The notes under the pieces are model-generated. The model was given only the letters and a program-made list of their open reading frames with translations. It searched no databases and was not told where the DNA came from. A stretch of DNA of 56,969 nucleotides from Alphaproteobacteria bacterium (lineage in GTDB: Bacteria > Pseudomonadota > Alphaproteobacteria > JAPYRI01), in contig JAPYRI010000002.1 of assembly GCA_029941135.1 (NCBI GenBank), positions 30,063-87,031 on the forward strand. Reading direction: 5' to 3'. This document shows positions 4,639 through 45,409 of this stretch, in pieces; positions within the stretch are counted from its first letter, which is position 1, and every line of letters begins with the position of its first letter. Both the position numbers and the translations under genes were made by a program.

Positions 4639-5127
4639 ATGGATATCAAATTGATGGTCGGCGACGAAATACCGGAATTTACCTTCATGCACATGACAGG
4701 TGATGGACCGGCGCCGATCACTACAAAAGAATTATTTGGCGGCAAGAAAGTAGCCTTGTTTGCCCTGCCGGGCGCATTTACGCCGACTTGCTCGGTCGAG
4801 CATCTTCCCGGGTACGTGAACAATGCTGACGCCCTTAAGGCAAAGGGCATTGATAGCATCGTGTGCTTATCGGTAAATGACGTGTTCGTCATGGATGCAT
4901 GGGCTAAATCTGCGGGCGCCGAGGGCAAAGTTCTCATGCTTGCCGACGGCAATGCCGAGTTTACCAAGCATATGGAGCTTGATTTGGATGCCAGCGGCTT
5001 CGGCATGGGCATTCGCTCGCAACGCTATTCCATGGTCATCGACGATGGTGTGGTCAAACACTTGAATATCGAGGAGGGTGTTGGCCTTGATGTCAGCAGC
5101 GCCGAGACAATTCTTGGACAACTTTGA
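4639..5127 (+). CDS. Peroxiredoxin, Prx5 type
   Basis: A thiol peroxidase of the Prx5 subfamily that reduces H2O2 and organic peroxides. The peroxidatic cysteine (about residue 51) lies in PGAFTPTCSVEHLPGY. A second cysteine sits in IVCLSVND (about 76). There is no C-terminal resolving cysteine, so a 1-Cys mechanism using glutathione/glutaredoxin is likely (inference). The 162-aa length is usual. A strong GGGGAG ribosome site precedes ATG 4639. The gene is followed directly by a good intrinsic terminator. The DsbD-domain gene upstream suggests a thiol-redox pair. Confidence 0.93.
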   Translation: MDIKLMVGDEIPEFTFMHMTGDGPAPITTKELFGGKKVALFALPGAFTPTCSVEHLPGYVNNADALKAKGIDSIVCLSVNDVFVMDAWAKSAGAEGKVLMLADGNAEFTKHMELDLDASGFGMGIRSQRYSMVIDDGVVKHLNIEEGVGLDVSSAETILGQL

Positions 5128-5145
5128 GCCCTAGAGGCAATGACG

Positions 5146-5171
5146 AAAAGGGGGCTTAGGCCCCCTTTTTT
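5146..5171 (+). terminator. Rho-independent terminator after the peroxiredoxin gene
   Basis: GGGGGC-TTAG-GCCCCC forms a 6-bp GC stem, extended by AAAA/TTTT, and runs into a T tract. It lies 18 bp after the peroxiredoxin stop and should end that transcript. Confidence 0.9.
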
Positions 5172-5184
5172 GTGTTTGGCCTTC

Positions 5185-5220
5185 GAACAACCGTGGACAG
5201 TATACTGTCCCCGATTGTTC
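5185..5220. repeat. 36-bp near-perfect palindrome (copy 1 of a shared motif)
   Basis: The core GGACAGTATACTGTCC (5195-5210) is a perfect 16-bp palindrome. Outer arms GAACAA/TTGTTC extend it to 36 bp with two mismatched pairs. The same GGACAGTATA / TATACTGTCC arms recur at 29081-29136 around a longer loop. It lies between a terminator and the SPFH gene. It could be a REP-like mobile palindrome or a protein-binding site. Confidence 0.8.
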
Positions 5221-5298: not shown

Positions 5299-6288
5299 AT
5301 GTTAGATTTTTCAATTTTTGTCGTGGTGTTGTTGGGGTTGGCCGTGATTTTTGTTTTTCTCGGCGTTCGGACGGTATCCCAGGGATACGAATACACGGTC
5401 GAGCGCTTTGGGCGCTACACGCGCACTTTGCGCCCCGGCTTCCATATCATTATTCCGATCATTGATCAGATAGGTTCTAAATTGAACATGATGGAGCAGG
5501 TTCTCGACGTGGCGTCTCAAGAAGTGATTACTCGCGACAACGCAATGGTCACAGTGGATGGCGTTGTGTTTTACCAAATTCTTGATGCCAGTCAGGCGGC
5601 CTATGAAGTTTCCGATTTGACCAGGGCCATTCTCAACTTGACCATGACCAACATTCGGACCGTCATGGGGTCAATGGATTTGGATGAACTTTTGTCTCAA
5701 CGGGACGCAATTAATGCGCGCTTGCTTAACGTTGTTGACGAGGCGACCGGGCCGTGGGGTGTAAAAGTAACTCGGATCGAGATTAAAGACATTTCTCCGC
5801 CCCGCGACTTGGTCGAAGCCATGGCCCGGCAAATGAAAGCCGAGCGCGACAAGCGCGCGAACATTCTTGAGGCAGAAGGACTCAGGCAAGCTGAAATCCT
5901 GGGTGCCGAGGGCAGCAAGCAGGCTGTTATTCTGGACGCTGAAGGACGGCGTGAAGCTGCGTTTCGTGACGCCGAAGCCCGTGAAAGAGAGGCGGAAGCG
6001 GAAGCCAAGGCAACCACCATGCAGTCAGACGCCATTGAATCAGGCAATATTCACGCCATAAATTATTTCGTCGCCCAACAATATATCGACGCCTTGAAGG
6101 CGTTTGCTGGGTCAGAGAACGAGAAAATACTGTTCATGCCATTGGAAGCGGCAAATGTGATCGGGGCGATCGGCGGTGTTGCTGAGATTGCGCGGCAAGC
6201 GTTTGGCGGCTCTGGGAGTGGAAAAGGCGGCGCCGGCAAGGGTGCTGACGATGATTCGTCCGGTCCGTGGCTGTCAGGGGACCAATGA
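5299..6288 (+). CDS. SPFH domain protein (stomatin/QmcA-like)
   Basis: A membrane-anchored scaffold protein of the stomatin/prohibitin/flotillin family. Residues about 5-25 form an N-terminal membrane segment. The SPFH core follows ([20 protein letters not shown] and later [15 protein letters not shown]). The middle has a long charged coiled coil rich in Glu/Ala repeats such as [11 protein letters not shown], and the tail is Gly/Asp-rich. An AGAAAGGAA ribosome site precedes ATG 5299. Its stop overlaps the NfeD start (ATGA), and SPFH and NfeD proteins are known to act as a pair in membrane domain organisation and quality control. Confidence 0.93.
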
Positions 6289-6740
6289 TGCTCGATCCAT
6301 TTCTTGAACAACTCAATCACTGGGACTGGTGGATATTCGCGACCGTGTTGATCATCCTTGAGGTGTATGCACCGAGTGCCGTGTTCTTGTGGTTGGGTGT
6401 GGCTGCCGGCGGTGTCGGCGGTGTGGTTTTCGTTTTGCCTGATATTTCTTGGGAAAATCAGGTTTTGGTGTTTGCCTTGTTATCGGTCGTCAGCGTCCTC
6501 GTTGGACGAAGATATTTTCGTTGGCGTCCCATCGCGACGGACCATCCCTTTCTCAATCGGCGTGGCGAACAATACGTGGGTCGCTCCGCGATTCTGGTAA
6601 AGTCTATCGAACATGGCAAGGGGGCGATCCGGTTGGATGACAGTACTTGGAGTGTAACCGGCCCGGACCTGCCGGAAGGGGCGAGCGTTAAGATCGTTGG
6701 GGCTGAAGGAACCATCTTGCTGGTGGAGGAAGACAAGTAA
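6285..6740 (+). CDS. NfeD family membrane protein
   Basis: A short NfeD-type protein (about 151 aa), the usual partner of an SPFH protein. Hydrophobic segments cover the first 75 residues or so (e.g. [16 protein letters not shown] and [15 protein letters not shown]). A soluble OB-fold domain follows ([28 protein letters not shown]). I chose ATG 6285, overlapping the upstream stop by 4 nt; ATG 6288 is equally possible. The track start at 6267 is a GTG deep inside the neighbour. It ends 2 bp before a convergent gene. Confidence 0.9.
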
Positions 6741-9210: not shown

Positions 9211-9290
9211 TTTTACATGAGTTGACTAACAGCGGGCCGGCACTATCATGTCGTCTTCGGGCCTTAAGCCCGTGCCGTTAAGTTAGCCTT

Positions 9291-9567
9291 GTGGGAGAGA
9301 TTTGCGGCTCGTTCGATTAATGACGGGCACAGCAAACGCCGAAGGAGCAACCGCCCCGGAAACTCTCAGGCAAAAGGGCCGCAAGGCGTGGCACTCTGGA
9401 AAGTAAACCGGCCGTTTTTATCCGGCTGTTTCCGACAATCGTAAAGTCGGGATCAAGGTTTCACCGAAGGGGTAAGCCGCTTTGATGCCGCGCATTGTGT
9501 CGATACCAAAGCAAAGTGCGGCTGAGTACAAAGTTGGCCAATCTCTCAGGTCCCAAGACAGAGGGGG
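9291..9567 (+). promoter_or_regulatory. Tandem glycine riboswitch upstream of the gcv operon
   Basis: Two glycine aptamer signatures lie in series. The first has GGGAGAGA, GCCGAAGGAGCAA and AACTCTCAGGCAAAAGG, ending near CACTCTGGA. The second has CACCGAAGGGGTAAG, then an unusually long arm, then AATCTCTCAGGTCCCAAGACAGAGGG. The order and sequences match the known glycine riboswitch consensus. It sits directly upstream of gcvT and should switch the glycine cleavage operon on when glycine is abundant. The leader from the end of aptamer 2 to the gcvT ATG is about 75 nt and should hold the expression platform; no clear T-run terminator is seen, so control may be at translation (inference). Confidence 0.93.
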
Positions 9568-28178: not shown

Positions 28179-28997
28179 ATGGCCATGTGGGAAGTGGAGG
28201 TGACCGACGGGGTCGCGGTCGCGAGTTATACCAATCCGCCGATGAATTATATGACCGCCGACGGTATGGGAGAGTTGAAGGATTTGATCGAGACCTGGCG
28301 CGACCCGTCCATCAAAGCTGTGATCTTGACCGGCGGTCCGGCCGACCGTTTCATCACCCATTATAGTGTGGAAGAGTTGGTCGAGAGCGCTCGCGACAAA
28401 GAGATGATGATGAACGTCGGTCGCTCGTGGCTGCATCACCACAACGGCACCTTGACCAACTTGCGCGATTTACCGAAGCCGGTGATTGCCGCCATGACTG
28501 GCAGCACTATGGGCGGCGGCTTTGAGACCTCATTGTCGTGCGATATTCGGATTGCCCAACGGGGCGATTACCGCTTTGGCCTTCCCGAAGTGACCCTCGG
28601 CATTCTACCGGGAGGTTGCGGCACGCAACGGCTGTCTCGTCTCTTGGGCGCGGGCAAGGCCATCGACTTCATCTTGCGCGGGCGCATTTGTAAGCCCGAA
28701 GAAGCGTTTGAGCTGGGCCTCGTTCACGAATTGGCCGACGACGCCAAGGCACGCGCCATCGAAATCGCCCGCGAAATGACGACCTTGTCGGCGGTCGCTA
28801 TCGCCGAGATCAAACGCGCGGTCTACGAGGGCTCGGAAGTACATTTGGCCGGCGGCCTTGAGATCGAGGGCGACGCGTTCATCCACACCATGATCACAGA
28901 CGAAGCGGTCGAGATCATGCAGGAATATGTGGATACGCCGTTCGACGAGCGCATCGCATGGTTGGAACGCAAAAAGGGCCTGCTGCATCCGAGATAA
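28179..28997 (+). CDS. Enoyl-CoA hydratase/isomerase family protein
   Basis: A 272-aa crotonase-fold enzyme acting on acyl-CoA. The oxyanion-hole regions are DRFITHYSVEEL and GSTMGGGFETSLSCDIRI. A glutamate sits in GLPEVTLGILPGGCGTQRL at the site of the second catalytic acid, and one in GFETSLSCD near the first, so hydratase chemistry is possible. A GGGGAG ribosome site precedes ATG 28179. An amidohydrolase, a thiolase-fold protein and DUF35 follow on the same strand, but a palindrome and a weak hairpin lie between, so it may be a separate transcript. Confidence 0.92.
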   Translation: MAMWEVEVTDGVAVASYTNPPMNYMTADGMGELKDLIETWRDPSIKAVILTGGPADRFITHYSVEELVESARDKEMMMNVGRSWLHHHNGTLTNLRDLPKPVIAAMTGSTMGGGFETSLSCDIRIAQRGDYRFGLPEVTLGILPGGCGTQRLSRLLGAGKAIDFILRGRICKPEEAFELGLVHELADDAKARAIEIAREMTTLSAVAIAEIKRAVYEGSEVHLAGGLEIEGDAFIHTMITDEAVEIMQEYVDTPFDERIAWLERKKGLLHPR

Positions 28998-29080
28998 ATT
29001 TGGGGCGGTCGGTGCAGATGGCTCAAAGGCTCCTCGAGCCAAGTGAGTTCAAATGCGGAGTGTTTCAAAAATGGGCAGTT

Positions 29081-29136
29081 AAACCGAGGACAGTATACCT
29101 TTTTCACAAATGTAAAAAATATACTGTCCCCGGTTT
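29081..29136. repeat. 56-bp inverted repeat (copy 2 of the GGACAGTATA motif)
   Basis: Arms AAACCGaGGACAGTATA (29081-29097) and TATACTGTCCcCGGTTT (29120-29136) match over 17 bp with one mismatch. The 22-nt spacer can pair further (TTTT/AAAA, CA/TG). The inner arms GGACAGTATA/TATACTGTCC are identical to those of the palindrome at 5195-5210, where the spacer is absent. It lies between the crotonase and amidohydrolase genes. Confidence 0.8.
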
Positions 29137-29141
29137 AGCTT

Positions 29142-29239: not shown

Positions 29240-30502
29240 ATGAGCACAGAACCTGAGTCTCGCATCCATCCCGATCCCAATCTGTGGCGGCAAAGCACCC
29301 CAGGCAGCGAGAGTTGGCCGCGCTCGCCCCAGCCTTCGGCAGACAATAAATTCTTTATGGCGTCTGCCGATTGCCATGCGCAGGAGCCGCTTGATTTTTT
29401 AAGCGCGCGCATGCCGGAGAAATATCACGAGCGCCTGCCGGCGGTGATTTTGGGTGGCGACGGCACCAAATGGCAAAAGACCGAGGGCTACCGGCCAACC
29501 AAGCTCTTCAACTTTAAGTTTGAGGGCGAGGATCTGGAGCGGTCGCAAGCGGGCTTTACGCCGGACGAGCGTTTGGCGGCGTTGGACCGGGACGGGGTCG
29601 ATTGCGAGCTTATTTTCCCCAACAAGGGATTGACCGTTTGGGCGACGCCAGACACGGCGTTCAGCCAGGGCATGTGCCGTGCGTGGAACGAATGGGCGTG
29701 GGAGGAGTTCGGCCCCCACAACGACCGCCTGTCGCCGGTCGCTTGCATCGCCCCGGGTGATATGGATGGTGCGATTGCCGAAATAGAACTCGCGGCCAAG
29801 CTTGGTTTTAGGGCCTTGGCGCTGCCGACCAAGCCCGAATGGGGGCCGCCCGATTTTGAGCAAAACAATTACAACAACCCCGAGTTCGACACCCTGTGGG
29901 CCGCCATTTGTGATGTTGATCTCCCGGTGACGTTCCATATTTCCACCGGGCGCGACCCGCGCACGTCGCGGGGCAAGGGTGGTGCTGTTATCAATTATGT
30001 GGTGCATGCGCTGTCGCAAGCCATGGAGCCGCTGGTGAATATTTGCGCGTCGGGGGTGGCCGAGCGCTTTCCCAAGATGAAGTTCGGCACCATCGAAGCC
30101 GGCATCGGCTGGATGGCGTGGATGCTCACCGCCATGGACGAGGGCTACCATAAGCACCACATGTGGGCGCGGCCTAAACTCAAAAACTTGCCGAGCGATT
30201 ATTTTAAGGCCAACGGATTCTCAAGCTTTGGCGAAGACGTGCCGGGGCTTGATTTGCTCCGCGAGCATGGCCTTGCCGATAACTGTTTGTGGGCGAACGA
30301 CTTCCCTCACCACGAAGGCACCTGGCCCCATTCGGCATCGGCCATCGAGCGCACCATGGGCAACTTGTCCGACCCCGAGCGCGCGAAAGTCTTAGGCCTG
30401 AATGCCGCGCGCATATTCAAATTCCCCATCCCCGCGCGCTATCGAAACTTCGATGATTGCGCAGCAGTTGTAGGCGAAGTTGCCGAAAGAATGAGTGAGT
30501 AA
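29240..30502 (+). CDS. Amidohydrolase family metal-dependent hydrolase
   Basis: A 420-aa TIM-barrel hydrolase of the amidohydrolase-2 (decarboxylase/ACMSD-like) group. The N-terminal metal motif is degenerate: ASADCHAQEP keeps Asp and one His instead of the usual DxHxH. Later signature segments are VTFHISTGRDPRTS, FPKMKFGTIEAGIGW and WANDFPHHEGTWP, the last holding the catalytic Asp. Such proteins occur in many acyl-CoA and aromatic catabolic clusters. A GAGGGCG ribosome site precedes ATG 29240. It is followed after 3 bp by the thiolase-fold gene, so they form one unit with DUF35. Confidence 0.9.
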   Translation: MSTEPESRIHPDPNLWRQSTPGSESWPRSPQPSADNKFFMASADCHAQEPLDFLSARMPEKYHERLPAVILGGDGTKWQKTEGYRPTKLFNFKFEGEDLERSQAGFTPDERLAALDRDGVDCELIFPNKGLTVWATPDTAFSQGMCRAWNEWAWEEFGPHNDRLSPVACIAPGDMDGAIAEIELAAKLGFRALALPTKPEWGPPDFEQNNYNNPEFDTLWAAICDVDLPVTFHISTGRDPRTSRGKGGAVINYVVHALSQAMEPLVNICASGVAERFPKMKFGTIEAGIGWMAWMLTAMDEGYHKHHMWARPKLKNLPSDYFKANGFSSFGEDVPGLDLLREHGLADNCLWANDFPHHEGTWPHSASAIERTMGNLSDPERAKVLGLNAARIFKFPIPARYRNFDDCAAVVGEVAERMSE

Positions 30503-45334: not shown

Positions 45335-45409
45335 TGGGGCGTAGCCAAGTGGTAAGGCACCGGTTTTTGGTATCGGCATTCGCAGGTTCGATCCCTGCCG
45401 CCCCAGCCA
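45335..45409 (+). tRNA. tRNA-Gln (anticodon TTG)
   Basis: A complete cloverleaf with encoded CCA. Acceptor arms TGGGGCG/CGCCCCA pair fully. The D arm is GCCAAGTGGTAAGGC, the anticodon stem-loop CCGGTTTTTGGTATCGG has anticodon TTG, and the T arm is GCAGGTTCGATCCCTGC. The discriminator is G, followed by CCA. AT-rich DNA and repeats follow immediately. Confidence 0.95.

Follow-up and report, generated by a model that had tools for sequence, protein, structure and literature searches.

Among the internally deleted, non-coding derivatives of Y1 transposase elements, PATEs retain a hairpin near either end. RAYT-like genes that are enclosed by long terminal inverted repeats are known as TIRYT or TIRtrons, and the repeats of this kind have the motif GGGGWSAS in common and form moderately abundant repeat families (Di Nocera 2013, PMC3733652). 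Most TIRYT have been placed in subclass 2.1 (Quentin 2018, PMC6006769). The palindromes described here are a new example of this known kind of mobile repeat. They have in common with TIRYT/TIRtrons a TnpA-REP-type Y1 gene, the GGGGWSAS motif in its terminal inverted repeats, and free-standing repeats of the same sequence that are moderately abundant and often paired, and they differ in showing, within the source genome, a graded series from the full element to a spacer-free palindrome of 36 bp. The likeness to REP/RAYT systems and REPINs lies in the small intergenic palindromes, arranged as inverted pairs, and in a related HUH transposase bordered by the same repeat, whereas there is no GT[AG]G foot here, a single arm is no REP hairpin, and the copies number about ten and not hundreds. 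The family would also resemble PATEs and other MITEs derived from IS200/IS605, in that all are internally deleted non-coding Y1 derivatives, but PATEs, to the extent that they are described in PMC4853749, carry subterminal hairpins at each end, whereas here both ends form one hairpin.

The stretch of DNA analyzed, referred to as the window, comprises 56,969 nucleotides of an alphaproteobacterial genome (G000, 3.02 Mb in 178 contigs, which are given C-numbers). It contains two related palindromes, W1 and W2 (Table 1). W1 is an imperfect palindrome for which the inverted-repeat scan gives 16 pairs out of 18, and at its center stands the perfect 16-bp palindrome that an earlier note on this DNA had described, exactly as given there. 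That note had also stated that the arms recur at a site 24 kb away, where a 22-bp spacer parts them, and that both sites are intergenic; the sequences confirm the first statement and the gene calls on either side confirm the second. In W2, 17 of 18 positions pair and both ends reach TAAACCG. When folded as single-stranded DNA, W1 gives -9.1 kcal/mol (z -5.7 versus shuffles) and W2 gives -16.7 kcal/mol (z -8.7). Taken alone, the 16-bp palindrome of W1 is unremarkable against chance, as simulated windows of 57 kb hold between 0 and 4 such palindromes, with a mean of about one. A spacer-free palindrome of 36 bp with 16/18 pairs was found in none of 20 simulated windows. Across the whole window, inverted repeats of this quality with spacers of 0-39 are W1 and W2 only, and the arm decamer GGACAGTATA, counted with at most one mismatch, is present seven times against an expectation of 0.87, a number that no shuffle reached.

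Table 1. Positions of the palindromes, of their neighboring genes and of further family members in the source genome (plain numbers are positions in the window; entries with C are contig positions).
Feature	Location	Strand	Remarks
W1, spacer-free fold-back copy	5185..5220	.	36 bp, GAACAACCGTGGACAGTATACTGTCCCCGATTGTTC
W1 core	5195..5210	.	perfect 16-bp palindrome GGACAGTATACTGTCC
W2, fold-back copy	29080..29137	.	58 bp, 18-bp arms TAAACCGAGGACAGTATA...TATACTGTCCCCGGTTTA, 22-bp spacer
W2 inner arms	29088-29097 / 29120-29129		GGACAGTATA / TATACTGTCC, 22-bp spacer between
Peroxiredoxin (Redoxin PF08534)	4639..5127	+	upstream of W1
Intrinsic terminator-like hairpin	5145..5170	+	of the redoxin gene, distinct from W1
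SPFH/Band 7 (stomatin-like) protein	5299..6288	+	downstream of W1
NfeD	6267-6740		after the SPFH gene
Enoyl-CoA hydratase/isomerase	28179..28997	+	neighbor of W2
Amidohydrolase (PF04909)	29240..30502	+	neighbor of W2
Y1 transposase gene	C127:826-1491
Two-armed copy	C58:12840		~60 bp
Two-armed copy	C67:1255		~60 bp
Two-armed copy	C3:46206		~60 bp
Two-armed copy	C20:17		~95 bp
Two-armed copy	C19:23678		~95 bp
Two-armed copy	C46:8099		100 bp
Two-armed copy	C37:5050		226 bp
One-armed copy	C104		adjoining a gene end

W1 and W2 each lie between genes of the same direction. The sequence around W1 yielded nothing promoter-like, and neither W1 nor W2 has a match in Rfam. The window also holds a glycine riboswitch aptamer (RF00504, 62.8 bits, 9282-9391, + strand), upstream of an open reading frame from 9571, and a tRNA gene (RF00005, 61.3 bits, 45335-45406, + strand).

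The earlier note had proposed that arm pairs and their spacers be counted throughout the genome and that a Y1/RAYT gene be sought, and both searches were productive. Exact arms occur at eight loci of the source genome in the pattern search, and at more once mismatches are allowed. Pattern and model searches together give, besides the Y1 locus, at least nine two-armed copies, W1 and W2 included; C37 and the one-armed copy at C104 were recovered as pattern hits. The copy number is low, at about ten scattered copies. The spacers are graded, with the half-sites from 0 to more than 200 bp apart, and the feet of the palindromes read GAAC or TTAAACC. A covariance model trained on W2 and on the copies at C58, C67, and C3 picks up C20, C46, C19, and W1, none of which was used in training, with E-values from 1.5e-10 for C20, the best independent match, to 1.3e-4 for W1. 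A two-arm pattern is found at four loci, three of which are family members, and its reversed control at 0; the fourth locus, on C28, is unconvincing as a member. Lone arms like GGGGACAATATA at C5 and C34 lack a partner arm and are probably due to chance. At C104:2840 (L035, near 1490-1520), the apparent end of an acyl-CoA dehydrogenase gene is directly followed by a right arm without a partner, TATACTGTCCTCGGTTGTTAGC, which is of the AACAACCG type seen in W1.

The source genome contains only one Y1_Tnp gene, on a different contig from W1 and W2, and it is flanked on both sides by the arms of W1 and W2, with inverted repeats at distances of 64 bp (upstream) and 2 bp (downstream). The element, the only copy of the family that looks intact, is about 750 bp long and sits on a contig of 6.4 kb, and its two repeats are imperfect. 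The left repeat is AAAAACCGGGGACAGAATGCTGTTT and the right one, reading inward, is AGTAAAACCGTGGACAGTATACAGTTT, with the bounding arms AAAAACCGGGGACAGAATGCTGTTTATTGACA on the left and AGTAAAACCGTGGACAGTATACAGTTTT on the right, again reading inward. The left repeat holds GGGGACAG, which is also present in the right arms of W1 (when read on the - strand) and W2, while the right repeat has GTGGACAG; the GGGGWSAS motif is present in the flanking repeat. The encoded protein, of 221 aa, matches PF01797 (44.6 bits over cut-off), and its match to REP_Tyr_transpos (NF047646) has an E-value of 1.5e-19 with 70.3 bits, slightly below the NCBIfam cut-off of 80. Its catalytic motifs are intact, with HVH (60-62) and Tyr119 invariant in eight aligned family members, and the closest solved structure for the family profile is that of TnpA-REP (4er8, E 5.5e-9). 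With regard to the C-terminal helix-turn-helix domain of subclass 2.1, Y1_Tnp is the sole domain in the Pfam scan, and the protein has a short conserved basic C-terminus (TGRPLG...GRPKK). The search for plasmid copies of the element gave no match.

What the earlier note had suggested, namely a dispersed REP-like element, possibly mobilized by a RAYT-type transposase elsewhere, is supported for this family. The element is dispersed, it is a relative of REP/RAYT, and a Y1 gene with the same arms exists; mobilization of the copies in the source genome is what we infer from their dispersal and anatomy. The identity as a GTAG REP was rejected, given that the feet carry no GT[AG]G tetranucleotide and that no stem tagged in this way was found in the 2.5 kb around the Y1 gene. 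For this reason the family is filed under the TIRtrons, although it is REP/RAYT-like in its working.

The relatives compared with the source genome, and with a second genome (G007) described below, are relatives at the level of the class. The Y1 protein has matches at E <= 1e-30 in 22 of 289 genomes of the class, counting the source genome. Around the homologue loci, an inward-facing GG[GT]GACA[GC] motif occurs no more than 180 bp away in 19/28 cases upstream and 12/27 downstream, versus 2/28 and 3/27, respectively, on the wrong strand, and versus 0/24 and 0/27 in control windows placed 600 bp farther out. In one of these genomes, G121, there is also a fold-back whose arms are those of that genome's Y1 element (GGTGACAGTGCACT). 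An apparent 36-bp copy in another genome (G123) is a low-complexity GTTGAC/GTCAAC repeat and is not a member. Genome G007, which belongs to another family of the same class, carries the most copies, at least 14 near-perfect fold-backs of 61 bp with GGAGACAGTATA-type arms, and a Y1 gene was found there only as a fragment at a contig edge.

In the source genome, the copies form a series of decreasing size, from the ~750-bp TIRtron through a 226-bp remnant and copies of ~95 bp to the ~60-bp fold-backs and the 36-bp W1. The graded internal deletions can be followed in what is left of the interior. Aligned in inverted orientation, the interior of the 226-bp copy (C37) matches the beginning of the Y1 gene plus the leader with a score of 88 (maximum of 52 in 200 shuffles), short stretches from the left end and leader survive in the copies at C20 and C19 (27 and 26 bp, 88-89%), and the ~60-bp fold-backs consist of the arms and a few inner bases only. 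In the C58 copy the self-palindromic hexamer GTATAC occurs twice in direct orientation, and removal of one GTATAC together with the intervening 18 bp gives the 36-bp palindrome AATAAACCGGTGACAGTATACTGTCACCGGTTTATT, which has the form and length of W1. The suggestion that W1 is a collapsed form gains from this comparison, given that a deletion between direct GTATAC repeats would explain it without special assumptions.

These observations make it very probable that W1 and W2 derive from an IS200-like Y1 element bounded by terminal inverted repeats and that internal deletion has left them non-autonomous. Against this weigh the low copy number, the short contig and imperfect repeats of the Y1 locus, the narrowly missed NCBIfam cut-off, a comparison confined to class-level relatives, and the pairing in G007 of the most copies with only a Y1 fragment. 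The parent would be a Y1 HUH transposase gene between terminal inverted repeats of the AAACCGGGGACAG type, with TATAC(T/A)nTTT inside (a "TIRtron"). The transposase presumably recognizes the arms as single-strand hairpins and may have moved the deleted copies in trans, and W1 would be the product of slippage within a ~60-bp fold-back, from one GTATAC to the other, the two being direct repeats and self-palindromic. The match between the near-perfect arms could be maintained through hairpin-templated (template-switch) correction, through repeated transposition, or through both.

The way in which the arms have changed bears on this last point. In the alignment of 18 fold-backs, 4 from the source genome and 14 from G007, the arms covary strongly, with 14 of 26 pairs changed on both sides, and the corresponding count of cells is 40, versus 10.5 +/- 2.7 after shuffling. 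The alignment is 95% paired, versus 35-45% in slid controls, a percentage that alone is no independent evidence because these sequences also supplied the structure. Two-sided changes outnumber one-sided changes by four to one. Judged from these sequences, the covariation would fit homogenization of the arms at the DNA level by template switching, which is described at hairpins (PMC8794818), better than selection for RNA pairing.

In G007, the pairing also extends into the host DNA. A contiguous mirrored length of at least 15 bp outside the ACAG core is found in 4/14 copies versus 0/182 between-copy pairings, and the mirrored stretches pass beyond the common arm into locus-specific sequence. 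At the loci L173, L175, L178, L184, and L186, about 15-22 bp are mirrored on either side of the ACAG core; L184, the fifth case, has one mismatch followed by about 20 mirrored bases. L175 has within its mirrored stretch the sequence CCTGTG, the conserved Pro-Val codons that close an M24 aminopeptidase gene, repeated across the element, which could reflect inverted copying of host DNA or entry into an existing palindrome. A tentative proposal, which we consider rather doubtful, is that the fold-back copies arose or grew through inverted copying of one arm along with adjoining host DNA, or that they entered at the tips of existing host hairpins; the inverted copying would be template switching at a hairpin, perhaps started by Y1 nicking. 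At three further loci (L176, L177, and L182) a second partial arm (e.g., AATTAAACCGGAG) stands immediately next to a complete fold-back, an arrangement that would result if one copy had landed in or beside another.

Most of the G007 copies (L163, L169-L172, L203-L210) are flanked by convergent genes, in some cases donating a stop codon. Given that these genes stand a few tens of bp apart, and that several copies of the source genome are likewise placed between convergent genes, some again donating the stop codon, the repeats might be RNA hairpins or bidirectional terminators selected at gene ends, with a secondary link to the transposase, and the convergent-gene fold-backs of G007 might indeed act as two-way terminators. 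As an account of the family this is improbable. W1 and W2 are between genes of the same direction, a complete terminator already precedes W1, and the stem has no adjoining T-run. The ratio of two-sided to one-sided, G-U type changes (40 versus 10) is also unlike that of selection for RNA pairing alone, and accumulation at gene ends is general for REPs (PMC3733652), as would be expected of tolerated insertions.

The earlier note had offered, as its alternative, a regulator site common to two loci, that is, the operator of a dimeric regulator with GGACAGTATACTGTCC before the SPFH-NfeD genes and a split form before the amidohydrolase gene. The position of W1, a perfect 16-bp dyad that follows a terminator and precedes a start codon by 89 bp, would suit an operator, but this reading is very unlikely given that the motif is present in the 420 bp upstream of 0/80 SPFH orthologues, that the region around W1 gave no promoter-like site, and that the spacing of the half-sites, which differs between W1 and W2 and varies so widely among the copies, could hardly be tolerated by a dimer. 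In addition, an alphaproteobacterial MAG (L126), which serves as a distant substitute for an empty-site comparison, keeps the order of redoxin, terminator, and SPFH without the palindrome; its intergenic region is shorter and has a similar hairpin at the position of the redoxin terminator. The arms, moreover, correspond to the termini of a transposase element. Chance palindromes, of which one perfect 16-bp example is expected per window of this size, have next to no probability as an explanation, given the 36-bp extent, the identical arms elsewhere, the E-values of the model, and the Y1 link, and the counts already refute them.

The reading of W1 and W2 as deleted derivatives of a TIRtron concerns TIRYT-linked repeats, a group that has received far less study than GTAG REPs. 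Within a single genome, the path can here be followed from the element that carries the gene, by way of intermediates, down to a plain 36-bp palindrome. Given that homologues in the class have the same inverted end motif, recognition of the arm by this branch of Y1 transposases is directly testable, and the mirrored host flanks in G007 bear on the origin and upkeep of long perfect palindromes.
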